A DNA stretch of 64,000 nt, taken from assembly GCF_009664835.1 (NCBI RefSeq), contig NZ_CP045929.1, forward strand, positions 2,604,001 to 2,668,000, read 5' to 3'. This document shows positions 10,501 to 58,823 of the stretch, in pieces (position 1 is the stretch's first letter; the number at the start of each line of letters is the position of its first letter). Under the pieces are notes generated by a model. That model worked only from the letters and a program-made list of their open reading frames with translations. It did no database searches and had not been told where the DNA came from. The DNA is from Allosaccharopolyspora coralli (GTDB lineage: Bacteria; Actinomycetota; Actinomycetes; Mycobacteriales; Pseudonocardiaceae). The position numbers and the translations under genes are program-made.

Positions 10501-10503
10501 CGG

Positions 10504-10809
10504 CTACTCCTTGAGATCCGCGGCCATGTCGGTCATATCCACATCCCGAGCGCGGAAAATCGCCGTCACCACGGCGAAACCGACCGCCATCTCCACCGCC
10601 ATCGCGGTGATCACCACAATGATCAGCACCTGACCGTCCGCATTGGACGGAGCAACGTAGTGCCAGAACGCCGCCGCCGCGACGATAACGCCGTTGAGCA
10701 TCAGCTCCAAGCCCATCATCAGCATCACGATCGACTGCTGCGACAGCGCACCGAACAGACCGATGGCGAACAGCCCGGCACCGAGCAACAGGAACACCTC
10801 CAGACTCAT
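10504..10809 (-). CDS. nuoK: NADH-quinone oxidoreductase subunit K-like protein
   Basis: A 101-residue protein with three membrane helices. It carries the NuoK features LLLGAGLFAIGLFGAL, VMLMMGLELMLNGV (conserved membrane Glu) and VITAMAVEMAVGFAVV (second membrane Glu). Its length matches the family. ATG 10809 overlaps the nuoJ stop by 4 bp. It belongs to the core membrane arm that links the quinone site to the antiporter subunits. Confidence 0.87.
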   Translation of the reverse strand: MSLEVFLLLGAGLFAIGLFGALSQQSIVMLMMGLELMLNGVIVAAAAFWHYVAPSNADGQVLIIVVITAMAVEMAVGFAVVTAIFRARDVDMTDMAADLKE

Positions 10810-19837: not shown

Positions 19838-20127
19838 AGGACCACGGAGCGCTTGAGGACATCACGCTCCATCTCCAACTCCGTTTTCTCCTTGTCCCAT
19901 GCGGCTTTCTCTGCCCGCAACCGCGTCAGCTCCGCGCGCTCGGCTTCATCCAGCTCACCCTGCTCCCTCTCGGCGCGGCCACGATCAGCCTTCACCCAGT
20001 TATGCAGCGTGTACGAGCTAACGCCCAACTCCCGCGCAACCTGCGCGACCGGCTTCCCGGTCTCCGCCACGATCCGCACCGCGCCCGCCCGGAACTCCGG
20101 ATCGAACCGACGCCTCTTGTTTCCCAC
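19810..20127 (-). CDS. IS3-family transposase OrfA
   Basis: A 105-residue DNA-binding protein with an N-terminal helix-turn-helix (KRRRFDPEFRAGAVRIVAET, then VARELGVSSYTLHNWVK) and a C-terminal heptad-rich region EAERAELTRLRAEKAAWDKE that forms the leucine-zipper-like coiled coil of IS3 OrfA proteins. It overlaps orfB. Confidence 0.9.
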   Translation of the reverse strand: MGNKRRRFDPEFRAGAVRIVAETGKPVAQVARELGVSSYTLHNWVKADRGRAEREQGELDEAERAELTRLRAEKAAWDKEKTELEMERDVLKRSVVLWVKDAMNQ

Positions 20128-20448: not shown

Positions 20449-21765
20449 TCACGATCGTGGGCTCGACAGCGAAAGCTGAGTCGTCTCTTCCGTCTCCGCG
20501 TGATCGTGACCAGCGCTGTCAGCGACGGCGTGTTTCTCCGCGCGGGCCGGACCGAGTGCGAGCACGCAGGCCAGGCCGGAGGCGGCGGCCATCACGAGCA
20601 CAGCACCACTGACAGGCATGGCCAGTACCAACGGTCCGGCCAACAACGGCCCGGCGGACTGCCCGATCAGCAGGAAGCTGTTGGCCGTGCTGACCAACGA
20701 ACTCTTCCGTTCCTCCGGCGCGTGACGGCTGAAGTGCAGGAACAGCGACTGAGCGAGCGCGGCGAAGCAGAAGCCCTGCACCAGCCGCAGCGGGATCAAT
20801 GCCAGCGGCCCCAACGGAAGCACGACCGCCGCGATGCTGACAGCGCAACCCCCCGCAGCCAAGGCAAAGGCACGCACCGGACGGCCGGTGACGTCGTTGC
20901 GCTGACCCCACCAGAACGAGCCCAGCAGCGTGGCACCCCACATCACCGAATGCAGCACACCCACCCACAGGCTCGCGGAGTCTGGTGCCGTGACGATTCC
21001 GCTGACGTGCTCGGCGAAAACAGGGATCAGCCCGTAGACACCGAAGTAAGCTCCGACAGCGGCCAGCGAAAGCGGCACAGCGCCGGGAACTCGCATCGCG
21101 CCACGACTAGCTCCCCGAGACGCCTGAAACCCGTTGGAACGTGACCGTTCCGGTTCCTGGAGGCCGACGGCGGATCCCACCGCGAGAACGACCGCAGCAA
21201 TGGCGATCACGAACATGAGCTGCCGCAAACCACCTGCACCGACGAACACTCCCCCGGCGATCGGACCGACCAACGCACCGGCTGCGGTCGCGCTGAACGA
21301 CTTGCCCAGCGACGAGCCCCGCTTGTTGTCCGAACCGGCCGACCCCGCGAACGCCGCCGCTGCCTCGACAACTCCACCCAGCGCACCTTGCAGCAAGCGG
21401 CCCGCAACCAACACCAGTGGGCTGAAAGCCAGGGCCATGACCACCATCGCCAGCGCCAGCCCCAGCAGAGCGCGGACGACCATCCACTTGCGACCGATCC
21501 GGTCACCGAGCCGACCCCACAGCGGAGTGGCCACAGTCAAGGCCAGCGCCGGGGCAGCGATGGCCACCCCGGCCCACGTCTGCGTTGCCGCGACCCCCTG
21601 GATGCCCATGTCCTTGAGGTAGAAGGGCATGATCGGCACCAGCATCATCAACCCGGCGGTGTTGACGAACTGCCCCGCCCACAGCAACATCAGGTTCTTG
21701 CTGTCCGCCTCCACGGGGCCGCGCCGCCGCGGCCCGATGGAGGTCTGGAGCTCTCGCCGGGTCAT
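20449..21765 (-). CDS. MFS transporter, probable exporter
   Basis: A 438-residue major facilitator with about 12 membrane segments. The loop 2–3 motif is visible as PLWGRLGDRIGRKWMV, and the second half shows SVMWGATLLGSFWWGQRND. It ends in a His/Glu tail (SAGHDHAETEE). ATG 21765 overlaps the stop of the SbnA-like gene, so the two are translationally coupled. In such pairs the MFS protein often exports the product of the biosynthetic gene. Substrate unknown; a 2,3-diaminopropionate-derived compound or an amino acid is possible. Confidence 0.8.
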   Translation of the reverse strand: MTRRELQTSIGPRRRGPVEADSKNLMLLWAGQFVNTAGLMMLVPIMPFYLKDMGIQGVAATQTWAGVAIAAPALALTVATPLWGRLGDRIGRKWMVVRALLGLALAMVVMALAFSPLVLVAGRLLQGALGGVVEAAAAFAGSAGSDNKRGSSLGKSFSATAAGALVGPIAGGVFVGAGGLRQLMFVIAIAAVVLAVGSAVGLQEPERSRSNGFQASRGASRGAMRVPGAVPLSLAAVGAYFGVYGLIPVFAEHVSGIVTAPDSASLWVGVLHSVMWGATLLGSFWWGQRNDVTGRPVRAFALAAGGCAVSIAAVVLPLGPLALIPLRLVQGFCFAALAQSLFLHFSRHAPEERKSSLVSTANSFLLIGQSAGPLLAGPLVLAMPVSGAVLVMAAASGLACVLALGPARAEKHAVADSAGHDHAETEETTQLSLSSPRS

Positions 21766-22745
21766 GATGCGACCGCGTCGACCGCTTCCGGTTCCCACTG
21801 CGCGTCCGGCAGGCCAGCGACCCACGTGTCGTCGTAGACCAGGTCGAGGTAGCGCTCCCCGCGGTCGGGAAGCATCGTGACCACCCGGGCTCCAGGCTCC
21901 AGCTGTGGGAGCAGCTTGTCGATACCAGCCACGACAGCTCCGGAGGAGCCGCCCGCGAAGATCTTTTCCGTCTCCAGCAGACGGTGACACCCCGCCACGG
22001 AGTCCGCATCGCCGACGTGCAGCACCTGGTCGATCTCCTGTTGGTTCAGGATTTCCGGTACTCGGCTGGCTCCGAAACCGGGCAACTGCCGCGGTCCGGC
22101 GGGTGCTCCGAAGATGACCGAGCCGACGGCATCCACCGCCACGACCTTCATGTTCGGGTGCTGCTGCCGCAGTCGGCGGGCCATGCCTAGGATCGAGCCG
22201 GTAGTGGAGACCGCGGCCACGAGGTAATCGATCGACCCGGCCACGGTCTGCAGAATCTCCTGCCCGGCCGTTTCGTGATAGGCCCGCCAGTTCAGGTCGT
22301 TGGCATACTGATTCACCATCACCGCGCCAGGCGCAGCGGCCAGCTCCCGCGCGCGCCGCACACGCGTGTGCAGGTAACCACCCGCCTCGTCCAGTTCGGT
22401 CACCATCTCGACATCGGCACCATAGAGCGCGAGCAGGCGCAGGTTCGTCGTCGAGGTCTTGGGGTCGACGACCGCGGTGAACGACAGGCCGTGCAGGCTG
22501 GCCGCCATGGCCAGAGCGATACCGAGATTGCCCGAGGTGCTCTCGACCAGACGCATACCCGGATGCAGGGTCCCGTCCCGCAGGCCCTGCTCGACGATGA
22601 AGCGAGCGGGCCGATCCTTCATGCTGCCGCCGGGGTTGAGCATTTCCAGTTTGGCGATCACTTCGGTATCGGGCTCGGGAAAACAGCGGTCGAGACGAAC
22701 CATCGGGGTTGATCCGACACAGCTGAGAACAGAATCGTGAATCAC
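21762..22745 (-). CDS. SbnA/cysteine synthase-like PLP enzyme
   Basis: A 327-residue fold-type II PLP enzyme. It shows the family pattern VGSTPMVRL, then KLEMLNPGGSMKDRPARFIV with the Schiff-base Lys in SMKDR, the substrate loop ESTSGNLGIALA and the phosphate-binding region STTGSILGMA. The 'NPGGS.KDRPA' form is closer to SbnA (making N-(2-amino-2-carboxyethyl)-glutamate, a diaminopropionate precursor) than to housekeeping CysK. GTG 22745 is chosen because GGAGG lies 6 nt upstream. No SbnB-type dehydrogenase or NRPS/NIS synthetase is present here, so the pathway is incomplete or different. Confidence 0.72.
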   Translation of the reverse strand: MIHDSVLSCVGSTPMVRLDRCFPEPDTEVIAKLEMLNPGGSMKDRPARFIVEQGLRDGTLHPGMRLVESTSGNLGIALAMAASLHGLSFTAVVDPKTSTTNLRLLALYGADVEMVTELDEAGGYLHTRVRRARELAAAPGAVMVNQYANDLNWRAYHETAGQEILQTVAGSIDYLVAAVSTTGSILGMARRLRQQHPNMKVVAVDAVGSVIFGAPAGPRQLPGFGASRVPEILNQQEIDQVLHVGDADSVAGCHRLLETEKIFAGGSSGAVVAGIDKLLPQLEPGARVVTMLPDRGERYLDLVYDDTWVAGLPDAQWEPEAVDAVAS

Positions 22746-23012
22746 TGCGAACCTCCTGCAATGCGGCGCGTTCGGGGCGCAGCCGCACTCGGCTGAAAAA
22801 GACAAAAAGTCAGGTAACAGCAGGCAGCATCGCGAGGATCCACAAACAACCCGGCAACCGGACCACTGAGCCCATACCGCAGCACGGCCCGGGTCAGGGT
22901 CAGGGCACGCAGACACCTGTCCCGGAAGCGACAGGACTCAGCAGGGCGCCTCAACAGGGCGCGAGGGTCGCCGGGAACTTCACGAATCGTGCACGCGACG
23001 CTGCGAGGTAAA

Positions 23013-25588: not shown

Positions 25589-25605
25589 TACTAGAATCGC
25601 TAGTA
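25589..25605. promoter_or_regulatory. BlaI-type operator, perfect dyad
   Basis: TACTAGAATCGCTAGTA, extended by GG/CC on both sides to 25587–25607. It lies 53 bp upstream of the beta-propeller gene at 25658. Confidence 0.7.
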
Positions 25606-29669: not shown

Positions 29670-29686
29670 TACTATTCGACATAGTA
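29670..29686. promoter_or_regulatory. BlaI-type operator, perfect dyad
   Basis: TACTATTCGACATAGTA, upstream of multicopper oxidase copy 1 on the minus strand. Confidence 0.7.
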
Positions 29687-32620: not shown

Positions 32621-32637
32621 TACTATCTAGCATAGTA
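32621..32637. promoter_or_regulatory. BlaI-type operator, perfect dyad
   Basis: TACTATCTAGCATAGTA, immediately upstream of the Lgt-like gene. Confidence 0.72.
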
Positions 32638-32972: not shown

Positions 32973-33923
32973 CTACTGGAAGAAAACGGGGCAAATGGTC
33001 ACGCCCATGGCCACCAGCCCAAGCCCTGGACCGAGAATCATCCCGGTGGCAGTGGCCCCGAGCGCCGCGCGGCGGATCGTGCTCTGGGAACGAGACGGCG
33101 GTTCGGCCAGCCGGAGCGCCCGGGCCAGTGCCGAGGCGCCAGCTGCGCCGAGTGCGCCCCGTGGTGCAGGGTTGCTGGTCATCGAAGCCAGAGCCGCCAC
33201 CAGGGGGAGCGTGCCGTGACGTTTGACCGCAGCATCGTCCGCGCACAGCTCGAGCAAACGCGCGACCTCGACTTCGGCCACCTGGAACAGCAATGCACCG
33301 GGCAATGCGCGTCGCATCGCGCGCAGCGCGGTGAGCAGCAGGTGGTGACGACCGCGCAGATGGGCATGTTCATGGGCGAGAACCGCGGCAAGCTCGTCAC
33401 GGTCAAGCGCGTCCAGCGCACCCCGGGTCACGACAACGGTGCGTGTTGGACTGGCGACGCAGTAGGCGGCCACGTCGGCCGTCTCGATCACGATCGTTCC
33501 GGCACCCAGCTCAGGCGCCTCCCGCCCAGCCAGCCGTATTGCGCGGGAATGCCGTTTCCCGTGGACGTGCGCGTGAACCCAGTGACGCGCCGCTCGCCAC
33601 ATCAGCCAGCCCAGCCACACCGAAACCAACACGGCAGGGACCGCGAGCAACGCAGCTACCCACGGCGCGGTGATGCCCAGTGGCCGAAGGGCAGCCAGAC
33701 AACTCCGCAGGACATCCGCGACGCGACCCGGCCATGAGGCCAGGGAGAACAACGCGGCCACGGCGGCACCGATCCACGCCCCCACAGCGGTGGCAGCCGT
33801 CAGCGTCCACACCGCAGCCCCGAAACGGGGCGCCGTACCGGCGGCAGTCAGCCGGGGCAGGAAACGGGGTGCCACCACTGCCACGAGAAAACCGTAGAAT
33901 GCCAGGCACGTCGCCAAGATCAT
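32973..33923 (-). CDS. M56-family membrane metalloprotease (pair 2)
   Basis: A 316-residue polytopic protein closely similar to the one at 38912–39862 (ATCLAFYGFLVAVVAPRFLP, AGTAPRFG, CVASPTRTVVVTRGAL). The zinc motif is HEHAH in LAHEHAHLRGRHHLL, and the downstream ELCADDAAVKRHG supplies the usual acidic helix. ATG 33923 overlaps the repressor stop by 4 bp. No extracellular sensor domain is present. The strong similarity to pair 3 indicates a recent duplication. Confidence 0.85.
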   Translation of the reverse strand: MILATCLAFYGFLVAVVAPRFLPRLTAAGTAPRFGAAVWTLTAATAVGAWIGAAVAALFSLASWPGRVADVLRSCLAALRPLGITAPWVAALLAVPAVLVSVWLGWLMWRAARHWVHAHVHGKRHSRAIRLAGREAPELGAGTIVIETADVAAYCVASPTRTVVVTRGALDALDRDELAAVLAHEHAHLRGRHHLLLTALRAMRRALPGALLFQVAEVEVARLLELCADDAAVKRHGTLPLVAALASMTSNPAPRGALGAAGASALARALRLAEPPSRSQSTIRRAALGATATGMILGPGLGLVAMGVTICPVFFQ

Positions 33924-34291
33924 CGACTTGACCCCTTCGTCGACAGACTGCGCAGCACCTCCTGCAGCGACCGAACCTCCTCCGGAGTGCCGTCGGCGAG
34001 GAAGTGCATCAACACTGCCTTCATATTCTGGCCTTCGCTGAGCGCTTCGCGCATCAGACGTGCGGCATGCTCCTCCCGGGAGACGGTCGGCTCGTATCTC
34101 CAAGCCCGACCGTCCCGCTCTCGATCGAGCCAGCCCTTGCGGTGGAGGATATCCATCACAGTCATCACCGTCGTGTACGCAGGGTTTCGCTCCTCCCGGA
34201 GCTCCTCGACAACTTCACGCACGGTCGACGAGGTCCCGCGTGACCACAAATGCTCCATGATCGCTGTTTCCAGCTCCCCGAACCCGCGCAC
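33920..34291 (-). CDS. BlaI/MecI/CopY-family repressor (pair 2)
   Basis: About 123 residues from a GTG at 34291 (34294 is also possible), a few bases downstream of GGAGG. The winged-helix block is RNPAYTTVMTVMDILHRKGW followed by LDRERDGRAW. It is nearly a copy of the pair 3 repressor (RGFGELE.AIM...WSRG, LMREALSEGQ). A dyad with a longer spacer lies upstream at 34349–34371, so autoregulation is likely. Confidence 0.88.
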   Translation of the reverse strand: MRGFGELETAIMEHLWSRGTSSTVREVVEELREERNPAYTTVMTVMDILHRKGWLDRERDGRAWRYEPTVSREEHAARLMREALSEGQNMKAVLMHFLADGTPEEVRSLQEVLRSLSTKGSSR

Positions 34292-34744: not shown

Positions 34745-34761
34745 GACTATGGTACTTAGTA
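34745..34761. promoter_or_regulatory. BlaI-type operator with extended tail
   Basis: GACTATGGTACTTAGTA fits the N7 dyad with one mismatch and is followed by GTTTAGT, a tail also found at 38731–38760 and 53630–53655. It lies 28 bp upstream of the DUF3105 gene. Confidence 0.6.
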
Positions 34762-34789
34762 GTTTAGTTTCCCATTTCGGAGGTGTGTT

Positions 34790-35533
34790 GTGGGCAGAGG
34801 TACCAGCAAGCGGCGCCCGTCGGTGGCCGCAGCCCGGGAACCTTGGTCAGGGATGACGATTGCCGGCGTGCTGGTGGTCCTGGTGTTCGCCGGGGCCATC
34901 TTCGGATATGCGTACGTGCAGTACGCAGGCACGCAGGAGAAGCAGGCTGCGCTGGCTCCCTTCGCGCCTTCGGAGCAGAATCCGGACCCCTCGAAGGCGA
35001 TCCCAGGCGTCACGGTTGAGCAGTACAAGGGATCCCAGCACCTGCAGTTGCCGCAGCGGGTTGCGTACGACAAGAACCCACCGTTCGGTGGGGCGCACGA
35101 CCAGTACTGGGCGGGGTGTGACGGCGTCGTGTACGGCCAGCCCTTCCGAGTCGAAAACGCGGTCCATTCCTTGGAACACGGGGCGGTGTGGATCGCGTAT
35201 CGACCCGGTGCCGTCGACGCCGCCGGGATGCAGGCTCTGCGCGAGCGCGTCGAAGGCGAGTCGTACATGTTGATGTCTCCGGTGCCCACGTTGGACACGC
35301 CGATCGCTCTGCAGTCCTGGGGGCATCAGCTCAAGCTCGACCGCGCCACTGATCCACGCATTGACGAGTTCATCCAGGCGTTGCGTACCAACCGGTTCAC
35401 TCATCCGGAGGTCGGTGGGACGTGCCAGACGCTGGGGCCGGGCGCCTTCGATCCCGACAACCCACCGCCCTTCCAGCCGGGACCACCTGGACCAGGCGCA
35501 ACCCCGGTACGCGGCGGTGGCAGCGGTGGCTGA
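34790..35533 (+). CDS. DUF3105-domain membrane-anchored protein
   Basis: A 247-residue protein with one N-terminal anchor (GMTIAGVLVVLVFAGAIFGYA) and an extracytoplasmic DUF3105 domain. The domain shows YDKNPPFGGAHDQYWAGCDG and AVHSLEHGAVWIAYRPGAVD; the conserved His residues could bind metal. A Pro/Gly-rich tail ends the protein. The function of DUF3105 is unknown. GTG 34790 follows GGAGG by 6 nt. The gene overlaps the downstream DUF305 gene, so the two are probably one operon with the TlpA-like gene. Confidence 0.82.
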   Translation: MGRGTSKRRPSVAAAREPWSGMTIAGVLVVLVFAGAIFGYAYVQYAGTQEKQAALAPFAPSEQNPDPSKAIPGVTVEQYKGSQHLQLPQRVAYDKNPPFGGAHDQYWAGCDGVVYGQPFRVENAVHSLEHGAVWIAYRPGAVDAAGMQALRERVEGESYMLMSPVPTLDTPIALQSWGHQLKLDRATDPRIDEFIQALRTNRFTHPEVGGTCQTLGPGAFDPDNPPPFQPGPPGPGATPVRGGGSGG

Positions 35534-36251
35534 AACAGTGAGCCAGAAGGCAGACGAGAACCATGAGCCGGTGGCCGAAGGCGACCTCGGAACGCGACAG
35601 CGCTGGCTCACGATCACGCTGGCTATCTGCGTGCTGCTGGCGAGTGCACTACTCGGAGCCGCGGGAGCCTTGCTCCTGGTCGGGGCGGAACGTTCCGGAG
35701 AGACAAGCCCGAACTCCGCCGATGTTGGTTTCGCCCAGGACATGGCGCGACACCACGAGCAGGGTGTGGCGATGGCGAGCCTGGCCCGGGAGCGCAGTCG
35801 GGATGTCGACATCCGGCAGCTCGGTTTCGACATCGAACGCGGTCAGACCGAGCAGATGGGCCGTATGCGAGGTTGGCTGGGATTGTGGTCTCAGCCGACG
35901 GCTCCCGGCGGGGGGCACATGTCGTGGATGACCAGTGCAGGCGGTCACCCCAGGCACTCCGAGAGCCATGCGGACACCGATCGGCCGATCATGCCCGGCA
36001 TGGCGACCCCCAGTGAGTTGGAGCGGCTTCGCTCGATGGCGGGGCCGGAGTTCGACACGTTCTTTCTCCAACTGATGATTCGCCATCACCAGGGTGGCGC
36101 CCCGATGATGCGTGAGGCAGTCGCACGGGCTGCTGTCGGCGAGACGCGCAATCTGGCCGCGCGCATGCTGGAGGCGCAAACCGCGGAGGTGGACGTGATG
36201 ACGCGCATGCTCACCGAGCGCGGCGGTGCACCCCTTCCCCCACCCACCTGA
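35526..36251 (+). CDS. DUF305-family membrane-anchored protein (copy 2)
   Basis: About 241 residues from GTG 35526, overlapping the DUF3105 stop; GTG 35538 is an alternative. One membrane anchor (LTITLAICVLLASALLGAAG) precedes two DUF305 repeats with HH motifs (FAQDMARHHEQGVAMA and LMIRHHQGGAPMM) and a His/Met linker. Unlike copy 1 it is a transmembrane rather than lipobox-anchored protein. Likely periplasm-side copper handling, inferred from family context. Confidence 0.85.
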   Translation: MAETVSQKADENHEPVAEGDLGTRQRWLTITLAICVLLASALLGAAGALLLVGAERSGETSPNSADVGFAQDMARHHEQGVAMASLARERSRDVDIRQLGFDIERGQTEQMGRMRGWLGLWSQPTAPGGGHMSWMTSAGGHPRHSESHADTDRPIMPGMATPSELERLRSMAGPEFDTFFLQLMIRHHQGGAPMMREAVARAAVGETRNLAARMLEAQTAEVDVMTRMLTERGGAPLPPPT

Positions 36252-36269
36252 TCCGAAAGACGGGGTTCG

Positions 36270-36941
36270 ATGGTGCGTGAGTGGAGCCGCGAGATCCGCG
36301 TCACGGTCGTGGTGCTCGTGCTCGCAATTGCCGGTGTAGTCGCGTTGTGGCCTCGGAGCAGTGATGACGGATTCGGTAGGGACGGTGAGAGCGGACAACG
36401 ACCGGTGGCCAGTGCTCGCGCATCGACCCTCGAACCGGACGCCGTCTTGGCGCCCTTGCGGAAGCACGCGGCTGTGCAGCCATGCCCTCCGTCTCCTCGG
36501 GATGCCCACAGGGCAGGTCCGCTGGCCGGAGTCGTCGTCCCTTGCCTCGCGGACTCGAAGCCCGTGGAACTGAGCACTGCGCTGGCGGGCAAACCCGCGC
36601 TGCTGAACCTCTGGGCATCATGGTGCCCGCCGTGTCGAGAGGAGATGCCAGCGCTGGACGAGTACGCGGCCCGGAACGACGCGATTCCGGTCGTGGGCAT
36701 CAACGTTCAAGATCGTGCGACGGCTGCGTTGGAGCTGCTGGCCCGAACCAAGGTGCACTACCCGTCGGTGATCGACGTGCGAGGCGAACTGCAGCGCGCT
36801 CTCCGCGCGCCTCCGGTGCTTCCCGTGACGTACCTGCTGCGTCCGGACGGATCGGTGCAGCGCATCACCGAGCCGGCCACGTTTCACTCCGCCGATGAGA
36901 TCGCCGACGCAGTACGCAGGTACCTGCCCACCCGCGACTGA
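36270..36941 (+). CDS. TlpA/ResA-like thioredoxin-family protein
   Basis: A 223-residue protein with an N-terminal anchor (VTVVVLVLAIAGVVALWP) and a thioredoxin fold. The active site is WASWCPPCREEMPAL near residues 116–121, and the cis-Pro region is VLPVTYLLRPDG. Such proteins reduce disulfides outside the membrane, for example in apocytochrome c or copper-site assembly. An extra Cys pair (PCPPS, PCLADS) precedes the domain. It lies 18 bp after the DUF305 gene and is the last gene of that operon. Confidence 0.85.
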   Translation: MVREWSREIRVTVVVLVLAIAGVVALWPRSSDDGFGRDGESGQRPVASARASTLEPDAVLAPLRKHAAVQPCPPSPRDAHRAGPLAGVVVPCLADSKPVELSTALAGKPALLNLWASWCPPCREEMPALDEYAARNDAIPVVGINVQDRATAALELLARTKVHYPSVIDVRGELQRALRAPPVLPVTYLLRPDGSVQRITEPATFHSADEIADAVRRYLPTRD

Positions 36942-37401: not shown

Positions 37402-37608
37402 TCACCGTGCCGAATCGGATCCGCGAAGCCGTGCGTCACGCTGGGCCGCGCGGAGTTGGTCCACCTCCGCCCGCAGCTTGGTGACCTCGGCGTCTTGTCC
37501 TTCATGCTGTGGTTCCTGCGGCCCATGCTGGCCCCGCATCATGAGCCACATCATCAACCCCATGCCGATCGGGCAAGCAAGCAGCGCCAGCAATGTCAAC
37601 GATTCCAT
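37402..37608 (-). CDS. small Met-rich membrane protein
   Basis: A 68-residue protein with one hydrophobic segment [20 protein letters not shown] followed by a charged coiled-coil tail ([17 protein letters not shown]). It is clearly paralogous to the 62-residue protein at 55595–55783, sharing [22 protein letters not shown]. The ATG follows GGAGGTGGAGCA. A perfect operator lies upstream. Cys and Met in the membrane segment suggest copper binding or passage; function unknown. Confidence 0.7.
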
Positions 37609-37650: not shown

Positions 37651-37667
37651 TACTAACACCTATAGTA
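37651..37667. promoter_or_regulatory. BlaI-type operator, perfect dyad
   Basis: TACTAACACCTATAGTA, followed directly by a further GTAGTACT half-site cluster. It is 43 bp upstream of the small membrane gene on the minus strand. Confidence 0.7.
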
Positions 37668-37937: not shown

Positions 37938-38729
37938 TCAGGTGTCGGCGGAGGGAGAGGAGACCGCTAGCGCGCGAAGATGGAGCGCAGTGTCGTCGTC
38001 GTGCAGGGGCTGAACGACGAGAAATCCTTGGTTATCGGCCGCCTTCCACGGCAACTGTTGCCTGTAGAGCCGTTCCAGGAAGGCAGGGCCCTGGTGGTAG
38101 CAGAAGACGGAGGATTCGTGTCCGACGATGCCGGCGGTGTCGATGAACAGCGGAAGCTCGGCGAGGAGGTAGCGCACGGCGACGCGGAGTTGTTGGTCCG
38201 TTGGTTCCGTGCCATGGGGAAGGCGGCCGTCCAACACCCAGGTGGAGGCCGTGATGCACGTTTCGCGGAACTCGGGGTCCTCGTCGAACAGGGCATGAGC
38301 TTGTCCCAGTAGCTGCAGGTAGCGACCGTTTCCGCGGAGGACCGACCAGTTGAGGATCAGCCGCTCCGGATCGACGACACCGACGTCGGCCAGGGCACGG
38401 CAAATCTTGTTGTAGACGTAGCGGCCCTGGCGGCGAGCCTTGTGACGCGCTCGCTCCGGCGGATAGCCGAGCGCCTCAAGCGTGTGCGCCGCGGGGACGT
38501 CCGGGACGAAGAAATGCACGACGCCGAACTCGCTCAGCGCCCACCTGGCGATCGCCGCGATTCGAGCGCTCGAGAAGTAGCTGTTGAACGGGCTGATCCC
38601 GATACAGGCATGGTCGCGCTGGGCGAAGTTGCTCTGGCAGCTACTCGTCAGCGGGCGAACGGCCCAATCAGTGGCTTCGCCAGACCCGGACACGACAGCT
38701 TCGCCCACGACACTCTCCGCTCGGACCAT
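37938..38729 (-). CDS. cyclodipeptide synthase, AlbC-like NYH subfamily
   Basis: A 263-residue tRNA-dependent cyclodipeptide synthase. It aligns with AlbC at a constant offset of nine: catalytic Ser46 (GISPFNSYFS; AlbC Ser37), Tyr187 and Glu191 (RYLLAELPLF; Tyr178, Glu182) and Tyr211 (FCYHQG; Tyr202). Asn49 and His212 put it in the NYH subfamily. The basic helix ARHKARRQGR should bind aminoacyl-tRNA. The enzyme joins two amino acids from charged tRNAs into a diketopiperazine; the residues cannot be predicted here. No oxidase, P450 or methyltransferase adjoins it. ATG 38729 lies directly at an operator; GTG 38708 behind GGAGAG is an alternative start. Confidence 0.9.
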   Translation of the reverse strand: MVRAESVVGEAVVSGSGEATDWAVRPLTSSCQSNFAQRDHACIGISPFNSYFSSARIAAIARWALSEFGVVHFFVPDVPAAHTLEALGYPPERARHKARRQGRYVYNKICRALADVGVVDPERLILNWSVLRGNGRYLQLLGQAHALFDEDPEFRETCITASTWVLDGRLPHGTEPTDQQLRVAVRYLLAELPLFIDTAGIVGHESSVFCYHQGPAFLERLYRQQLPWKAADNQGFLVVQPLHDDDTALHLRALAVSSPSADT

Positions 38730-38730
38730 C

Positions 38731-38760
38731 GACTAACAATACAACTTAGTAGTTTAGTAG
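38731..38760. promoter_or_regulatory. BlaI-type half-site cluster at cyclodipeptide synthase promoter
   Basis: GACTA is followed by ACTTAGTAGTTTAGTAG, the same tail as at 34745 and 53630, but with four extra bases between the half-sites. It abuts the ATG at 38729, so promoter and operator probably overlap. Confidence 0.5.
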
Positions 38761-38911: not shown

Positions 38912-39862
38912 CTAGAGGGCGACGATGGGGCAAACGGTCAGTGCCATGGCTCCGAGAACCAAGCTTGGGCCGAGAACCAGCGTGGCCGCCGTGCCGCTGA
39001 GAGCAGCGTGGTGGGCGATTCGGTGCGCACGAGGCACTGGTTGCGCGAGCCGGACGGCGCGAGCGTGCGCGGAGTGGCCTGCGGCACCTAGGGTGCCCTG
39101 CGGGGTCGCCCCGCCGGTCATCGCTGCCAAAGCCGCGACCAGCGGAACCACGCCATGGCGTTTGACAGCGGCATCATCGGCGCACAGCTCTAGCAATCGA
39201 CCGACTTCGGTCGGCGCGGTCTGGAACAGCGGCACGCGCAGGAAAGCGCGGCGGACAGCGCCGAGCAAGGTGAGGATCAGGTGGTGTCGTCCGGACAGGT
39301 GAGCCTGCTCGTGGGCGAGAACGGCGGCGAGCTCCGCAGAGCTCAGGGCTTCTAGCGCTCCCCTGGTGACGACAACTGTGCGAGACGGGCTCGCCACGCA
39401 ATAGGCCGCGACATCCGTTGTGTCGACCACCACTGTTCCGGCGCCCAGTTGCGGGGCCTCAGCGCCGGCCAGCCGCACTCCGCGTGCGTGCCGCAGTCCT
39501 TGATGGTGCGCGCGGGCACAGTGGCTGCACATCCGCCACATCAGCCAGCACAGCCACACGACCGCGAGCACGGCGAAGCCAACGATGAGCGCGGCGGCCC
39601 ATGGCTGGTAGACACCTAAAGGACGCAGCGCTGCGAGGCAACTGCGGAGAAGGTCGGTCACGCGGCCTGACCACTCGGACACCGACAACGGCACGGCGAC
39701 CGCAGCACCGATCCAGGACACCAGGACGCTCGCTGCCGCGAGCGTCCACACAACGACGCCGAACCGTGGTGCCGTGCCAGCGGCGGTCAGGCGCGGCAAG
39801 AAACGCGGGGCCACCACCGCGACCACCATGCCGTAGAAGGCCAGACACGCCGCCAGCGTCAC
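38912..39862 (-). CDS. M56-family membrane metalloprotease (pair 3)
   Basis: A 316-residue polytopic protein with the zinc motif HEQAH in LAHEQAHLSGRHHLILTLLG and the acidic partner helix LELCADDAAVKRHG. It is highly similar to the pair 2 protease. GTG 39862 overlaps the repressor stop (GTGA). It ends with a short hydrophobic C-terminus containing LTVCPIVAL. There is no recognisable ligand-binding sensor domain. Confidence 0.86.
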   Translation of the reverse strand: MTLAACLAFYGMVVAVVAPRFLPRLTAAGTAPRFGVVVWTLAAASVLVSWIGAAVAVPLSVSEWSGRVTDLLRSCLAALRPLGVYQPWAAALIVGFAVLAVVWLCWLMWRMCSHCARAHHQGLRHARGVRLAGAEAPQLGAGTVVVDTTDVAAYCVASPSRTVVVTRGALEALSSAELAAVLAHEQAHLSGRHHLILTLLGAVRRAFLRVPLFQTAPTEVGRLLELCADDAAVKRHGVVPLVAALAAMTGGATPQGTLGAAGHSAHARAVRLAQPVPRAHRIAHHAALSGTAATLVLGPSLVLGAMALTVCPIVAL

Positions 39863-40227
39863 TGCTGCGACCTCTTGGCGAGTTTGCGGAGGACGCTCTG
39901 CAGCGACCGTGCCTCCTCGGGCGTGCCGTCTTGCATGAAGTGCATCAGGACCGCTTCGGTGTCCTGCCCCTCGCTGAGCGCCTCGCGCATCAGCCGTGCG
40001 GCGTGTTCCTCACGTGACGCGGTGGCCTCGTACCGGTAGGCGCGACCGTCGCGCTCGCGCTGCAGCCATCCCTTGCGGTGCAGGATGTCCATCACGGTCA
40101 TGACCGTCGTATAGGCGGGAGCCCGCTCCTCCTGGAGGTCCTCAACCACCTCGCGGACCGTCGCGGGTTCACCACGGGACCAGACGCGGTCCATGATCGC
40201 TGCTTCCAGCTCCCCGAACCCCCGCAA
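39859..40227 (-). CDS. BlaI/MecI/CopY-family repressor (pair 3)
   Basis: A 122-residue winged-helix repressor (RAPAYTTVMTVMDILHRKGW) similar to pair 2. The start is TTG 40227, behind GGGAGG with 7-nt spacing, and matches the start position of its relatives. An operator-like dyad lies 29 bp upstream. Confidence 0.88.
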   Translation of the reverse strand: MRGFGELEAAIMDRVWSRGEPATVREVVEDLQEERAPAYTTVMTVMDILHRKGWLQRERDGRAYRYEATASREEHAARLMREALSEGQDTEAVLMHFMQDGTPEEARSLQSVLRKLAKRSQQ

Positions 40228-40271: not shown

Positions 40272-40455
40272 CCTCAGCGGCGGATCTGGCCGTACCGGGT
40301 GGAGGCGTCCAGTACGGCGTACGCCGAAGGAGCGGCAGGCAAACTCGTCAAAGGAGCCCTGCGCAGCGCGGCCGACCCCACCCCGGGTGGGATGGGACCA
40401 TCACTTGAGCGCTCGCGTTGCCTCAGTCGAGTGTGCGTAGATGACGGGAGCATCG

Positions 40456-40854
40456 ATGGCCGAGGAACTGACGACGAAGAAGCGTGCTGCGCTGACCCGG
40501 TTGAAGACGGTGCGGGGACATGTGGACGGGGTCATTCGCATGTTGGAGGCCGATGCTTACTGCGTGGACGTGATGAAGCAGCTCTCGGCGACCCAATCGT
40601 CGCTGGAGCGTGCCAACCGGATCATGCTGCACAACCACCTAGAGACCTGCTTCTCCGACGCGGTCCTCACCGGTCATGGCCAGTCGGCCATCGACGAGCT
40701 TGTCGAGGCGGTGAAGTTCAACCCGGCGCTGACCGGGCCCCAGGCGCACGTCACCGGAGCCGCGGTCGGTGAAGCTGATGCCACGCCTGCGACTGCGGCA
40801 CTTCGCCCGACAAACCCACTGAACCGGAGGGAAAAACGCGATGATGATGGATGA
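40456..40854 (+). CDS. CsoR/DUF156-family metal-sensing repressor (second)
   Basis: About 132 residues from ATG 40456 with GGGAG 7 nt upstream; ATG 40441 has no such site. The CsoR core has Cys in DAYCVDVMKQL and His/Cys in LHNHLETCF, so Cu(I) ligands are conserved. The C-terminal tail is longer than in the 14279 CsoR and lacks a known motif. No G-tract dyad like the one at 14162 is seen just upstream. The gene overlaps a small SHOCT protein gene. Confidence 0.82.
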   Translation: MAEELTTKKRAALTRLKTVRGHVDGVIRMLEADAYCVDVMKQLSATQSSLERANRIMLHNHLETCFSDAVLTGHGQSAIDELVEAVKFNPALTGPQAHVTGAAVGEADATPATAALRPTNPLNRREKRDDDG

Positions 40855-41074
40855 CATGGGCGGCATGATGGTGTGGATGCTGCTGTGGGGCCTGATCGGT
40901 CTCGCAATGCTGGTACTGATCATCGTGGCGATCATCTGGCTGATCCGCCACATGCTCGCCGGCCCGACCTCGCGCTCCGACCCGGCGCAAGAGGAACTGC
41001 GGCGACGCTACGCCGCGGGGGACATCGATCATGAGGAATACCAACACCGCAGAGCCGAACTCCGAGAACGATAA
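40841..41074 (+). CDS. small SHOCT-domain membrane protein
   Basis: A 77-residue protein with a Met/Asp N-terminus (MMMDDMGGMM), one membrane segment (LIGLAMLVLIIVAIIWLIRH) and a C-terminal SHOCT motif (EELRRRYAAGDIDHEEYQHR). Such proteins are common beside copper regulators in actinomycetes, but their role is not established. It overlaps the CsoR-like gene by 14 bp. Confidence 0.78.
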   Translation: MMMDDMGGMMVWMLLWGLIGLAMLVLIIVAIIWLIRHMLAGPTSRSDPAQEELRRRYAAGDIDHEEYQHRRAELRER

Positions 41075-41153
41075 ACGCCTACGGTGCACTTGGCTGAGTC
41101 AACAGCGCCGACCTTCACCTCGCACAGAGGGAGCTCGACACCCCTCTAGGATA

Positions 41154-41170
41154 TACTAAGCTACTTAGTA
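41154..41170. promoter_or_regulatory. BlaI-type operator, longest perfect palindrome
   Basis: TACTAAGCTACTTAGTA, extended to 10-bp perfect arms over 41151–41173. It ends about 10 bp before multicopper oxidase copy 2, so repressor binding would cover the start region. Confidence 0.75.
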
Positions 41171-43497: not shown

Positions 43498-43507
43498 GTG
43501 GAGCCCC

Positions 43508-43876
43508 ATGGGGCGCACGGAGCGCAGGGCGGGTCTCGGGCCGCTGGAGTCCGAGGTCATGGATGTGCTGTGGCAGGCGAGTTCAACGCTGCCGGTGCGC
43601 CAGGTATTGGCCGAGCTCAACCGGAACCGGGATGCGGCGCTGGCGTACACCACTGTGATGACCGTGCTCTCGCGGTTGGCCGAACGCGGTGTGGTGCGGC
43701 GGGAGCGGGTCGGTCGCGGGTATGCCTATCAAGCCGCGGCTGGCAGCGGCGCCGAGATCGCGGTGCGTCGGCTGCTGGACGACTACGGCGAGGCAGCCCT
43801 GGTTTCCTTCGTCGACCACGTCGACGGAGACGAGCAACTGCGAGCGCGACTTCGCCGACTGGTCGACGAGCAATGA
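43508..43876 (+). CDS. BlaI/MecI/CopY-family repressor (pair 4)
   Basis: A 122-residue winged-helix repressor with the block ALAYTTVMTVLSRLAERGVV. It is more diverged from the others and closer to the mycobacterial BlaI type in its LGPLESEVMDVLWQA start. ATG 43508 has only a weak ribosome-binding site and may give a near-leaderless transcript. The protease gene overlaps its stop. Confidence 0.87.
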   Translation: MGRTERRAGLGPLESEVMDVLWQASSTLPVRQVLAELNRNRDAALAYTTVMTVLSRLAERGVVRRERVGRGYAYQAAAGSGAEIAVRRLLDDYGEAALVSFVDHVDGDEQLRARLRRLVDEQ

Positions 43877-44727
43877 GAGCCGATCGTCCGCTGTGGATAC
43901 TCGTGGCAGTGGCAGCGGCCACCTATCCCGCCCTCGGCTTGGCCTGGTGCGTCGCCGCACTCTTCGTCTTTCATTTTGGTCAACGCGCTCTCGGCGTCGA
44001 GGAGCATCTTGGGCAGATAGCTGGGGCCCTGCTCGTCTTGATGGGACTGCTTGCCGTGGGCAACGCGGTCCGCACCGTGGTTCGCGGGGTGCGGCAGACC
44101 CGCCGGTTCCACACCTGGGTCGTCTCGCGGCGGGTGCCGATTCCTTCCTCCGTCGCTGTTGTGGTGAACGAGTTCGGCTCGCGTGCACCGGTGACGGTGG
44201 TCGACGTCGAGCAGCAAGTCGCGGTGACCGTCGGGCTGCTGCGGCCTTCGGTCGTCATCAGCACGGGCCTGGCTGAGATCCTGAGCCCGGCCGAACTGCG
44301 CGCGGTCGTCGCCCATGAACAAGCCCACGCCAAGCGCAGAGACCCACTGCGCGTGCTGTTGGGACAGATGCTTGCCGCTCACTTGTGGTTTCTGCCAGCA
44401 GCCGAGGACATGCGGACCCGTGCCCGGCGCAGTTACGAGTTGGCTGCTGACCGTGATGCCACGAACCGCTACGGACAACGGGCGCTTGCAGGGGCACTGC
44501 TTCGCGTGCTGCCAGCCGCGATCACGCCCGGGTCCGTGGCTCCGTTCGCGGATTCCGATCTCCTGGACGCCCGGGTGGCTCAACTGGAGTCAGGCGAGCC
44601 TCCCCGCCCGCACCCCGTGTCGCCACTGCGCTCGGCATTGACCGCGACAGGGGCATGCGCCTTCCTGACCGCAGTGACCGGGGCATGGATGTTCATGCTG
44701 ATCGCGTGCCCGTGCCTGATGACTTGA
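43873..44727 (+). CDS. M56-family membrane metalloprotease (pair 4)
   Basis: A 284-residue polytopic protein with the zinc motif HEQAH in VAHEQAHAKRRDPLRVLLGQ and the partner helix YELAADRDATNRYG. It is shorter than the pair 2 and 3 enzymes and ends in a hydrophobic stretch with MLIACPCLMT; the CPC near the membrane is notable. ATG 43873 overlaps the repressor stop. Confidence 0.86.
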   Translation: MRADRPLWILVAVAAATYPALGLAWCVAALFVFHFGQRALGVEEHLGQIAGALLVLMGLLAVGNAVRTVVRGVRQTRRFHTWVVSRRVPIPSSVAVVVNEFGSRAPVTVVDVEQQVAVTVGLLRPSVVISTGLAEILSPAELRAVVAHEQAHAKRRDPLRVLLGQMLAAHLWFLPAAEDMRTRARRSYELAADRDATNRYGQRALAGALLRVLPAAITPGSVAPFADSDLLDARVAQLESGEPPRPHPVSPLRSALTATGACAFLTAVTGAWMFMLIACPCLMT

Positions 44728-44740
44728 AGGTCACAGTCGA

Positions 44741-45373
44741 TCACGACGCGGGCTTGCGTGCGACGAGGCGCTCGACAATGCCCAGCTTGAACCGCGCATG
44801 CTGCTCGATGACAAATCCGGCTGCCTGGACATGCTGAATGGGACGACGCCGGAAGTTCTCCCCGCCAACGGGGATGGTTACCAGCTCCAGCGCGCGCTGC
44901 AGAACCCGCACCGGCCATGCGGTGCTGACGACGTGGTCAGCCAGCAGCAGTCGACCGCCCGGCCGCAGGACACGCTTGATCTCCGTGACCACTTCGCGGT
45001 CATCGGGCACGGCACACAGAGAGAACGTGCAGACCACGGTGTCGAACAAGCCGTCGGCGAACTCCAGCCGCTGCGCGTTGCCCGTGCTCAGCGTGACCTC
45101 GCGACCAGTCGCTGCCGCGCGGCGGCGCGCATGGTCGAGCATGACCGGGCTCAGGTCGACGCCGGTCAGCCGCACCTCGTCCGGCGGATACCAGTCGAGG
45201 TTCAAGCCGGTGCCGATCGCGACCTCCAGTACCTCGCCCTGGGCCTGACGGCACAGCCATTGTCGGGTGTCGCCGAAGAGCTTCCGGTCCATGAAGCCCA
45301 TCTGCCGGTCATAGGTGCGCGCGTGCCGATCCCAATGCCGCCGCAACCGCTCAAGCTTGGTCGATGTCGCCAT
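44741..45373 (-). CDS. class I SAM-dependent methyltransferase (UbiE-like)
   Basis: A 210-residue methyltransferase with the SAM motif I VLEVAIGTGLNLDWYP, motif II TGVDLSPVML, the post-motif FDTVVCTFSLCAVPD and LRPGGRLLLADH. It resembles Methyltransf_11 enzymes of the phospholipid or quinone methylation type; the substrate is unknown. A perfect 20-bp palindrome made of the island half-sites lies 38 bp upstream, so it probably belongs to the same regulon. Confidence 0.82.
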   Translation of the reverse strand: MATSTKLERLRRHWDRHARTYDRQMGFMDRKLFGDTRQWLCRQAQGEVLEVAIGTGLNLDWYPPDEVRLTGVDLSPVMLDHARRRAAATGREVTLSTGNAQRLEFADGLFDTVVCTFSLCAVPDDREVVTEIKRVLRPGGRLLLADHVVSTAWPVRVLQRALELVTIPVGGENFRRRPIQHVQAAGFVIEQHARFKLGIVERLVARKPAS

Positions 45374-45410: not shown

Positions 45411-45430
45411 CTACTACAGCGCTGTAGTAG
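45411..45430. promoter_or_regulatory. BlaI-type palindrome, N8 form
   Basis: CTACTACAGCGCTGTAGTAG is a perfect 20-bp palindrome upstream of the methyltransferase. TACTAC/GTAGTA half-sites resemble those of staphylococcal BlaI/MecI operators. Confidence 0.65.
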
Positions 45431-53629: not shown

Positions 53630-53655
53630 TACTAATGAACTTAGTTGTTTAGTAG
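53630..53655. promoter_or_regulatory. BlaI-type operator with extended tail
   Basis: TACTAATGAACTTAGTT fits the N7 dyad with one mismatch and is followed by GTTTAGTAG, the tail shared with 34745 and 38731. It ends 20 bp before the second CcdA-type gene. Confidence 0.62.
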
Positions 53656-53675
53656 AGCAGACCTGGGAGGTGTCG

Positions 53676-54605
53676 ATGTACGAACTGCTGTTCGGCACGA
53701 CCCTGCTGACGGCTTTCGCCGGCGGCGTCGTGGCGCTGCTGGCACCCTGCTGTGTCTCAGTGATGCTCCCGGCCTACCTGTCGACGGTGTTCCGCCGTCG
53801 CGGCGGGACCATCGCCGCAACCGGCATCTTCGCTCTCGGTGTCGCGACCGTGATCGTGCCGATCGGACTGGGGGCAAGCGCGCTTGCCGCCCTCTTCGTC
53901 GACTACCACACCCCGGTCTTCTCGGTCGGTGGCGCAGCCATGATCGTGGGCGGGTTGGCAATCCTGGGTGGCTGGCAACCGCGGCTGCCGATGCTCGGCG
54001 GACGCGGTCCGTCCGGTCGAGGCGTCGGCTCGGTGTACGCGCTCGGGCTCTTCTCCGGTGCCGCCAGTTCCTGCTGTGCCCCAGTACTGGCCGGCGTGAT
54101 CCTGCTGGGTGGCGCGACCGCCTCGTTCCCAGCGGCGTTGACCGTCGCGGGAACCTATGTGGCGGGCATGGTCGCGCCGCTGATGGCACTGGCGTTCCTC
54201 TGGGACCGGCGAGCGGCCCGCAAGGCCAGCAGCTGGATGGAGGGTCGACGCATCCAGGTGCGCCTAGGGCGGTGGAGCCGCCAGATTCCGCTCGGGTACG
54301 CGCTTTCCGGTGGCCTACTCGTGCTGATGGGCGCGCTGACGCTCGTGCTCGCCGTCTCCGGCACCGGGATGTCTTCCACCGGCTGGCAGCTGCGTATCTC
54401 CGCCGACATCCAGCACGTCGCGTCGTGGGCAACCCGCCAGTTGTCTTGGCTCTCCGGATGGGCCGTGGCCGTGCTCCTGCTCACGGCGGCACTGGTGCTG
54501 ATCTTTACAGCCCGGCGGCGCGGCCAGGTTTCCAAACATCATTCCTGCTGCGACTCGAAGAACACCGAGTCTCATCCCGCGGAGGTCACCACCGATGAGT
54601 CCTAA
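53676..54605 (+). CDS. CcdA-type transmembrane protein with paired Cys motifs (copy 2)
   Basis: About 309 residues, with six to eight membrane helices. The redox motifs are LLAPCCVSVMLPAYLS and GAASSCCAPVLAGVIL, each with adjacent cysteines (CC), unlike copy 1. A Cys/His-rich cytoplasmic tail (SKHHSCCDSKN) ends the protein. It belongs to the CcdA/DsbD family, and the extra cysteines suggest metal-binding or a branched electron path. ATG 53676 has GGGAGG 5 nt upstream. It overlaps the redoxin gene. Confidence 0.8.
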   Translation: MYELLFGTTLLTAFAGGVVALLAPCCVSVMLPAYLSTVFRRRGGTIAATGIFALGVATVIVPIGLGASALAALFVDYHTPVFSVGGAAMIVGGLAILGGWQPRLPMLGGRGPSGRGVGSVYALGLFSGAASSCCAPVLAGVILLGGATASFPAALTVAGTYVAGMVAPLMALAFLWDRRAARKASSWMEGRRIQVRLGRWSRQIPLGYALSGGLLVLMGALTLVLAVSGTGMSSTGWQLRISADIQHVASWATRQLSWLSGWAVAVLLLTAALVLIFTARRRGQVSKHHSCCDSKNTESHPAEVTTDES

Positions 54606-55311
54606 GCCAAGCGCTCGGCGCAACCACCCCAGTCCCGCCCGCACCCCAGTGCGCCCGGCGCCCGTCCCGGACCATTCGCGACGACGGGAAGTCGTAGTGG
54701 CAGTCGTCGTCCGGGTGGTTGTCGCCGTACTCGGTGGCCTGTACGCGGTATATAGCGCCTCAACACCACGCCGCTCCGCGGACGACGGCAGCGCCACCCA
54801 AGGAAGCGCACAGTACCCGTTCGCGGTCGGCAATCCCGGTCCTGGACAGAAGGCGCCGGATTTCACCCTGCCCTCCAGCAACGGCGGCCAAGCCAGCCTG
54901 GCCGACTACCGCGGCAAGAACGTGCTGCTCTACTTCCAAGAAGGGCTGATGTGCCAACCCTGCTGGGACCAACTCACCGATCTCGAACGCAACGCCGGCA
55001 AGCTCAAAGCCGCCGGCATCGACGACGTCGTCTCCGTCACGACCGACCCCATCGACCTCGTGGCCCGGAAGAACCGCGACGAAGGCGTCACCACCCCCGT
55101 GCTGTCCGACCCGGACCTGTCCGTCTCCCGCGCCTACGAGACCAACAAGTACGGCATGATGGGCGACTCCCGGAACGGACACAGCTTCATCCTGGTCGGC
55201 CCGGACGGCACCATCCGCTGGCGCGCCGACTACGGCGGCCCGCCGAAGTACACGATGTTCCTGCCCACCGAGGCGATGCTGGCCGACCTCCGTGCAGGAG
55301 CGAAGCCGTGA
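54595..55311 (+). CDS. membrane-anchored peroxiredoxin/redoxin-family protein
   Basis: A 238-residue protein: Arg/Pro-rich N-terminus, one membrane helix (VVVAVVVRVVVAVLGGLYAV) and an AhpC/TSA-type thioredoxin fold (GQKAPDFTLPSSNGGQASLA). The redox site is FQEGLMCQPCWDQL, with CXXC instead of a lone peroxidatic Cys. It would accept electrons from the CcdA-type protein encoded upstream. ATG 54595 has GGAGG 9 nt upstream. Confidence 0.82.
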   Translation: MSPKPSARRNHPSPARTPVRPAPVPDHSRRREVVVAVVVRVVVAVLGGLYAVYSASTPRRSADDGSATQGSAQYPFAVGNPGPGQKAPDFTLPSSNGGQASLADYRGKNVLLYFQEGLMCQPCWDQLTDLERNAGKLKAAGIDDVVSVTTDPIDLVARKNRDEGVTTPVLSDPDLSVSRAYETNKYGMMGDSRNGHSFILVGPDGTIRWRADYGGPPKYTMFLPTEAMLADLRAGAKP

Positions 55312-55885: not shown

Positions 55886-55902
55886 TACTAAGGTAATTAG
55901 TA
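55886..55902. promoter_or_regulatory. BlaI-type operator, perfect dyad
   Basis: TACTAAGGTAATTAGTA, extended by G/C to 55885–55903. It is 22 bp upstream of the Met/Cys-rich secreted protein gene. Confidence 0.72.
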
Positions 55903-57577: not shown

Positions 57578-57620
57578 TGACCAGCTGCCCCCGGTGAGCC
57601 GCTCCGGGATGTCCGGAGAC

Positions 57621-58823
<1,203 letters not shown>

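Follow-up and report, generated by a model that had tools for sequence, protein, structure and literature searches.

An operator-like promoter element links a cyclodipeptide synthase gene of Allosaccharopolyspora coralli to a copper/redox island, and relatives of the enzyme recur beside metal-resistance genes

Results

Gene content of the island

The window analysed here, a stretch of 64,000 nucleotides of Allosaccharopolyspora coralli DNA (NZ_CP045929.1, positions 2,604,001 to 2,668,000), contains a copper/redox island with the sole cyclodipeptide synthase (CDPS) found in this genome (4.83 Mb, single contig). The genes discussed below are as follows, with L numbers marking the loci of relatives.

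21762..22916, minus strand: SbnA-family PLP enzyme (401 bits, cut-off 349.95), with relatives beside the CDPS in L055, L056 and L061
33920..34318, minus: second BlaI-family repressor, followed by an M48-type peptidase (frame 32973-34103)
34790..35533, plus: DUF3105 protein (Pfam)
to 36251, plus: DUF305 protein frame, after DUF3105 on the same strand
36270-36941, plus: TlpA/ResA-like thioredoxin frame, after DUF305 on the same strand
37402..37608, minus: small membrane protein encoded downstream of the CDPS; its DUF2933 match falls below the cut-off
37938..38729, minus: CDPS of the NYH subfamily, 263 aa (open reading frame, Pfam and NCBIfam profiles, AlbC alignment)
38912..39862, minus: BlaR1-like membrane metallopeptidase (M48/M56; PF01435), annotated M56 in relatives, overlapping the upstream BlaI gene
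39859..40227, minus: BlaI/MecI/CopY-family repressor, the first of three in the stretch (PF03965, 101.8 bits)
40441..40854, plus: CsoR-type metal-sensitive repressor (PF02583)
40841..41074, plus: small membrane SHOCT protein, with relatives near the CDPS in L048, L055, L066 and L104
41184..42824, plus: multicopper oxidase
43508..43876, plus: third BlaI-family repressor, followed by an M56 peptidase (frame 43498-44727, PF05569)
44741..45373, minus: class I methyltransferase, with related genes in L060, L062 and L063
52610-53383: DsbD_TM/CcdA gene
53670..54605, plus: CcdA-like membrane protein, sharing 59% identity with an L062 gene annotated CcdA
54595-55311: TlpA-like gene

The surroundings also include genes for CopC, a second multicopper oxidase and a heavy-metal P-type ATPase. 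Consistent with a mobile island, transposase genes are found at 18902-19837 and 56253-57536; the transposase-like stretches flanking the copper/redox genes extend over 18902-20127 and 56253-58091 (19810-20127 and 57621-58091 assigned by eye). The repressor at 39859..40227 scored 41.5 bits against the CopY_TcrY model, below its cut-off of 121.95, and no added sensor domain was found in the peptidase at 38912..39862. The CcdA-like protein at 53670..54605 had no Pfam match, and Rfam and tRNA scans of the window returned no hits. DUF3105 and DUF305 genes recur beside CDPS-BlaI-M56 loci (34790-36941 in the window, and L060, L047 and L103).

Judged by its residues, the window gene is predicted to encode an intact, catalytically complete NYH-type CDPS. 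The protein scored 252.6 bits against Pfam PF16715 (cut-off 27) and 281.4 bits against NCBIfam TIGR04539 (cut-off 45), and its residues 37-248 aligned to AlbC (3oqv) 28-239 without a gap, so that an offset of +9 holds throughout, as the preliminary description had proposed. All six catalytic and subfamily residues are present (Ser46, Asn49, Tyr187, Glu191, Tyr211 and His212, corresponding to AlbC Ser37, Asn40, Tyr178, Glu182, Tyr202 and His203), and the sequence already matches solved CDPSs. The range first assigned to the gene, 37938-38760, holds for the CDPS frame at 37938-38729, to which we add the minus strand, absent from that description, while 38730-38760 is promoter. The CDPS begins 183 bases downstream of the peptidase gene and has its own promoter region. 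That no tailoring enzymes adjoin the gene was borne out for about 6 kb on each side: among the neighbours examined in this range there was no cyclodipeptide oxidase, P450 or methyltransferase, nor was an exporter gene seen adjoining the CDPS. The nearest tailoring candidates are the methyltransferase at 44741-45373 (about 6 kb off), a possible but unproven tailoring enzyme preceded by a perfect palindrome, TACTACAGCGCTGTAGTA (45412-45429), and the SbnA-family PLP enzyme at 21762-22916, whose link to the CDPS is likewise unproven.

A promoter element in common with metal and redox genes

On the minus strand, the CDPS ATG is preceded, at a distance of 15 bases, by a doubled half-site, CTACTAANCTACTAAG, and the same element precedes three further genes of the island.

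38745..38760, minus: operator-like doubled half-site CTACTAAACTACTAAG, 15 bases before the CDPS ATG
41153..41168, plus: same element with 2 mismatches, preceding the multicopper oxidase at 41184
34755..34770, minus: same element with 2 mismatches, preceding the DUF3105 gene
53640..53655, minus: same element with 1 mismatch, preceding the CcdA-like gene at 53670

When up to 2 mismatches were allowed, the 4.83-Mb genome contained four matches, every one inside the window and before these four genes (CDPS, multicopper oxidase, DUF3105 gene and CcdA-like gene), compared to one match for the reversed pattern; with up to 3 mismatches, six matches were found in the window against 0.10 expected. TACTA/TAGTA words were likewise enriched, with 42 in the window versus 6-11 in five first-order random sequences. 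The claim that island operator half-sites stand right at the start of the gene is thus upheld, CTACTAAACTACTAAG lying 15 bases from the ATG and all four genome matches falling in the island. We predict the exact doubled half-site at the CDPS promoter to be a BlaI-type operator.

The number of TACTA-N7-TAGTA palindromes is not in itself striking (nine genome sites versus six for the reversed control) and was dropped as evidence, so that the argument rests on their clustering, all nine falling within 98 kb of the 4.83-Mb genome, and on the longer element. Shorter spacings (TACTA-N0-6-TAGTA) gave no match. Within the window, the palindromes are located at 25589-25605, 29670-29686, 32621-32637, 37651-37667, 41154-41170 and 55886-55902; the genes that follow them include those for small membrane proteins, an Lgt-like gene, a multicopper oxidase and a BNR-repeat gene accompanied by a BlaI pair. 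The one at 37651-37667, TACTAACACCTATAGTA, lies in the upstream region of the small membrane gene at 37402..37608.

The promoter element is common, genome-wide, to the CDPS and three metal or redox genes only, which argues for metal-linked control. Taking such control together with a role in the metal response, we consider the combination highly probable as a reading of the sequence.

Relatives of the CDPS beside metal-resistance genes

Relatives were collected from a class sample of 394 genomes, 27 of which gave CDPS matches, from a scan of named genomes (19 CDPS loci) and from 23 plasmid records with a CDPS match, five of which were opened; later relatives were drawn from 392 Streptomyces genomes and from 397 and 345 other genomes. 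The first loci served to build profile models of metal markers, which were applied to the 20-kb surroundings of other CDPSs as controls, and the later 44 loci were scored with the same, previously built models. Before counting, L101, L116, L123 and L127 were left out as repeats of named loci, L111 and L112 were replaced by the longer L142 and L143, and L014, L019 and L030 were excluded, their 20-kb context being absent; L028, a 33% partial match, was never used. The L128 CDPS protein is the same as that of L055, and L062 and L063 are near-copies. In Streptomyces cellulosae (L047, about 10001-10708) the CDPS is broken over frames, leaving a 172-aa piece, through decay or an assembly error.

Among CDPSs of the window's pocket type, the residue at AlbC position 206 separated the loci into two groups. 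Metal genes lay within 9.7 kb in 25 of the 29 rows without Val at this position and in none of the 35 rows with it, the latter including the L067 row (L004), counted as Val-206 though outside the 34-row sister branch. Among other CDPSs, 3 of 30 rows had metal genes, two of the three being unparsed clade members, L047 and L134; L134 had been mis-extracted at first, and its pockets (CGYPSMFF/AWVGRPE) are of the window's kind. In the later loci, metal genes were found within 9.7 kb of 11/11 window-type and, by rule, 0/27 sister-type CDPSs, the position-206 split having been noticed on the table that gave these same counts and the score thresholds of the metal rule having been set afterwards. One of the 27 had a weak CDF match below the metal rule, and six of the 44 later loci fell in neither type when first parsed. 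Fisher's exact tests returned 6e-14 and 2e-9, values that ignore descent and overstate independence because the metal label is clustered on the tree. On that tree the label required 8 changes versus about 22 in shuffles, none of 500 shuffles being as low, and the metal rows do not form one clade (quick tree method). The four non-Val rows failing the metal rule were L052, L054, L061 and L064, of which L061 has a heavy-metal ATPase about 10.5 kb off and a cupredoxin about 5 kb off; in L054 (13-1171, a short contig from a Bacteriovoracaceae MAG) a cupredoxin-like gene stands directly before the CDPS. Related CDPSs thus stand repeatedly next to metal-resistance genes, both in further actinobacteria and among alphaproteobacteria.

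These counts also bear on the possibility that the CDPS has nothing to do with metals and is a passenger of metal-resistance islands and plasmids. Of the five plasmid loci opened, four belong to large linear Streptomyces plasmids, and transposases stand on both sides of the window's island, as such hitch-hiking would predict; however, the CDPS has promoter elements in common with metal genes, metal-regulator-type promoters occur in different arrangements, and the sister branch has metal genes in 0/35 rows. We regard this explanation as already disfavoured and very improbable.

Regulators and gene orders in the relatives

Regulators differ between the loci, and the metal theme is constant, in the form of a BlaI/M56 pair, a MerR-type promoter or a mer operon alongside. 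Thirteen loci, the window among them, have both a BlaI and an M56 gene no more than 2.5 kb from the CDPS (12 if L055 and L128 are counted once), in varying arrangements; L134 has the window's order of BlaI, M56 and CDPS on one strand, and the Streptomyces plasmid of NBC_00637 has CDPS, BlaI, M56 and CopC in that order. BlaI-type half-sites or palindromes precede the CDPS in 6 of these 13 loci (expected <0.1, with the CTAA-TTAG pattern chosen after two examples had been seen), and no BlaI-type site was found within 260 bases upstream of the CDPS in the other seven. The relative nearest to the window, L113 (69% identical), carries the same doubled CTACTAA; the 9.7 kb on either side of its CDPS showed no BlaI pair.

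A second arrangement involves a MerR-type operator of the CTTGACC type, TTGACCTTGCCCTA(A/T)GGGCAAGG, which stands directly before the CDPS in 7 of the 32 loci scanned, about 350-400 bases before the CDPS middle. The TA...T box follows TTGACC after 20 bases, a spacing that we take to be the MerR-type promoter layout. The seven loci (L053, L062, L063, L106, L107, L108 and L143) are those with a divergent MerR gene, the CDPS and an ATPase downstream. The CDPS of S. liliifuscus and that of pFRL6 each stand opposite a divergent heavy-metal regulator, and a P-type ATPase follows about 20 bases after the CDPS. The L107 ATPase is split over three frames, reflecting decay or an assembly error. The MerR-type regulators of the relatives score below the equivalog cut-offs of CueR, CadR and ZntR. 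In two alphaproteobacteria (L058 and L059), the CDPS and the merR gene of a merR-merT-merA set are convergent, and this MerR carries the three cysteines presumably expected of a mercury sensor. The partner metals of the relatives are soft: the L062 ATPase is Cu-type (557.7 against the Cu model, cut-off 397), also passing the Cd model, the L042 ATPase is Cd-type, and L058 and L059 have mer genes.

Some of these gene orders could also suit a metallo-antibiotic, that is, a cyclodipeptide that binds copper or mercury and is released at competitors, with metal as the induction cue. In L055, L056 and L061 the CDPS has SbnA-family and MFS genes as direct neighbours, the PLP enzyme, MFS transporter and CDPS frames overlapping by four bases each on the S. 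mirabilis plasmid, and CDPS pathways usually belong to specialised metabolism (PMC5816076). Against a weapon stand the detoxification genes that partner the CDPS and the rarity of the SbnA-MFS pair, which occurs in just 3 of 30 loci and was not seen next to the window CDPS; we judge this account improbable. The SbnA-family and MFS genes beside the CDPS occupy 9531-12747 in L061, 8675-10989 in L055 and 12421-14909 in L056, and the set may possibly be a metallophore operon.

Pocket residues and the product

Pocket positions were taken from the sections of Gondry et al. 2018 (PMC5816076) on which all comparisons with characterised enzymes here rely. The window CDPS has P1 CGFPWLFF and P2 AWVGQPA. 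In those sections, CDPS 102 of Algicola sagamiensis makes 73% cCG and 27% cCC with P1 VGYPSIFF, a motif resembled by the P1 of many clade members (CGYPSLFF and similar); relatives with S, G or T at AlbC 119 have pockets closer to it than to other groups. The window P1 is near VGYPSIFF save for Trp at AlbC 119, where the cCG enzyme has Ser and the proline-accepting enzymes of the same table have Trp, and its P2 differs from SAIKDPT. Abundance offers a weak argument for kinship with cCC enzymes, with 4 clade versus 9 cYY-like rows in the class sample and 60 cCC versus 145 cYY in the published portion consulted. Members of the cCC group were not found in PMC11610984, PMC13062777 and PMC7613923, and PMC7487605 mentions cCC once, the source not being given there.

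The Trp also raises the alternative of a proline- or leucine-type cyclodipeptide (cPX) acting as a metal-stress signal or membrane-active compound instead of a ligand. In the same excerpts of PMC5816076, LGLPWLFF, close to the window P1, belongs to a cPM enzyme, and the nearest characterised relative in our set, Nocardia concava CDPS 100 (L057; P1 CGHPWLLY), makes cPP as its sole product; L057, however, falls outside the clade on the tree, its P2 (TDVHRIP) differs, and metal-linked relatives carry S, G, T or N in place of W in the same contexts. We consider a cPX product unlikely.

Further pointers come from the sister branch. The 35 Val-206 loci (for example L043, L046, L094, L120 and L136) share a strongly conserved cluster around the CDPS, with an NCS1 permease (33/35), an exported thioredoxin-like protein (28/35), a LysR regulator (28/35), a rhodanese (26/35) and a thioredoxin-reductase-like protein (13/35), as well as M1 or S8 peptidases; the one thioredoxin-reductase-like member tested scored 381 against TIGR01292 (cut-off 343). 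The cluster looks like a dithiol/disulfide diketopiperazine pathway, and the thioredoxin, rhodanese and thioredoxin-reductase-like partners fit the expectation for dithiol chemistry and count toward a cysteine product. The PLP genes beside the CDPS of L055 and S. mirabilis are annotated as cysteine synthase family; a cysteine synthase reading was dropped as support for cysteine, since the L055 and window copies are SbnA family by the NCBIfam model (393.8 and 401, cut-off 349.95). Judged from these features, the chances that the product of the window CDPS would contain cysteine appear evenly balanced. The most likely product would be a small cyclodipeptide, perhaps cysteine-containing, serving as a ligand or thiol buffer for soft metals, and is probably a small metal-handling molecule so far undescribed.

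Discussion

The explanation that we favour, on balance, is that the window CDPS is a working enzyme and that its transcription is tied to the metal and thiol-redox response of the island, the enzyme's product serving as a soft-metal ligand or buffer. In the mechanism that we propose, a BlaI-family repressor would act at CTACTAANCTACTAAG, well supported by sequence, with the M56 peptidase probably as sensor. The repressor would co-regulate the CDPS, the multicopper oxidase, the DUF3105-DUF305-TlpA genes and the CcdA-like gene, keeping synthase, oxidase and thiol-redox genes off until stress lifts repression; in relatives, a MerR-family activator may fill the equivalent role. On induction, the CDPS would, as expected from its family, convert two aminoacyl-tRNAs to a cyclodipeptide, presumably small and soft-metal-binding and most likely a cyclo(Cys-X) such as cyclo(Cys-Cys). 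Without further modification, this product may bind the metal as a ligand or serve as a dithiol buffer, either within the cell or outside it, in parallel with efflux and oxidation. For the ligand or thiol-buffer role taken by itself, we would put the chances a little short of even.

To our knowledge there is no precedent for a CDPS that serves to drain aminoacyl-tRNA, the reading in which the enzyme would deplete, for example, Cys-tRNA and so slow translation during metal stress, with the cyclodipeptide as waste. The consumption of aminoacyl-tRNA is part of the CDPS mechanism in the excerpts of PMC5816076, and the loci offer no pointer to such a use; we hold this to be the most improbable of the alternatives.

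Compared with known systems, the enzyme itself is ordinary. It shares with AlbC and other NYH CDPSs (PF16715, TIGR04539) the fold family, the six catalytic and subfamily residues and a gapless alignment, while differing from AlbC-type CDPSs in its pockets (CGFPWLFF/AWVGQPA), its metal-gene context and control, and the absence of an adjoining cyclodipeptide oxidase or P450. With the cCC/cCX NYH group, as far as covered by the consulted part of Gondry et al. 2018 (PMC5816076), many clade members have the P1 pattern xG(F/Y)P-x-(L/I)FF in common, the window enzyme differing by its Trp at 119. The adjacent repressor-peptidase pair and the TACTA/TAGTA-type palindromes are those of BlaI/MecI/CopY and BlaR1-type M56 systems; a beta-lactamase target was not seen here, and the targets would instead be the CDPS, multicopper oxidases and thiol-redox genes. 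The seven MerR-type loci have the perfect dyad, 20 bases wide between TTGACC and the TA...T box, of CueR/CadR/MerR promoters, yet the first gene driven is the CDPS, followed by the P-type ATPase.

Diketopiperazines of the pulcherriminic acid type need P450 tailoring. That type binds iron, whereas the window CDPS has no P450 and stands with resistance-type metal genes. The preliminary description had suggested a diketopiperazine made on copper or redox stress, as ligand or signal, and had thought it new. The first part gains partial support from the complete CDPS, the island operator and the lack of an adjoining tailoring partner, and the metal-linked relatives extend it beyond the window. Copper would be one candidate inducer among several, the BlaI-family repressor scoring below the CopY cut-off and the relatives standing with Cu-, Cd- and Hg-type genes. 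As for novelty, a metal-binding diketopiperazine as such is known, pulcherriminic acid and similar compounds being CDPS products that bind metal and derive from a cyclodileucine (PMC2922099, in the portion seen); what the literature searched did not contain is a metal-wired CDPS branch. Searches on copper, heavy metals, P-type ATPase and metal resistance, covering mostly titles and abstract openings, found no publication on a CDPS wired into metal-resistance control, and the passages seen of PMC9734747 and PMC9604106, considered as prior art, were unrelated. As far as these searches reach, the new part is thus the branch wired into metal-resistance control.

More tentatively, the branch could make cyclo(Cys-Cys) or cyclo(Cys-X) directly from cysteinyl-tRNA as a new low-molecular-weight dithiol, switched on by soft metals via BlaI/M56 or MerR and working like a metallothionein beside efflux pumps, the sister branch using the same dithiol for disulfide chemistry; we see this wider picture as possible and rather doubtful.

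Work on CDPSs treats them as the entry point to antibiotic-like pathways. A CDPS branch that stands with metal-resistance genes under varied metal-type regulators suggests a tRNA-derived cyclic dipeptide in basic metal and thiol homeostasis, and would give a group of orphan CDPSs in Actinomycetes a likely function. Should the product prove to be a dithiol, it would be a new kind of bacterial low-molecular-weight thiol.
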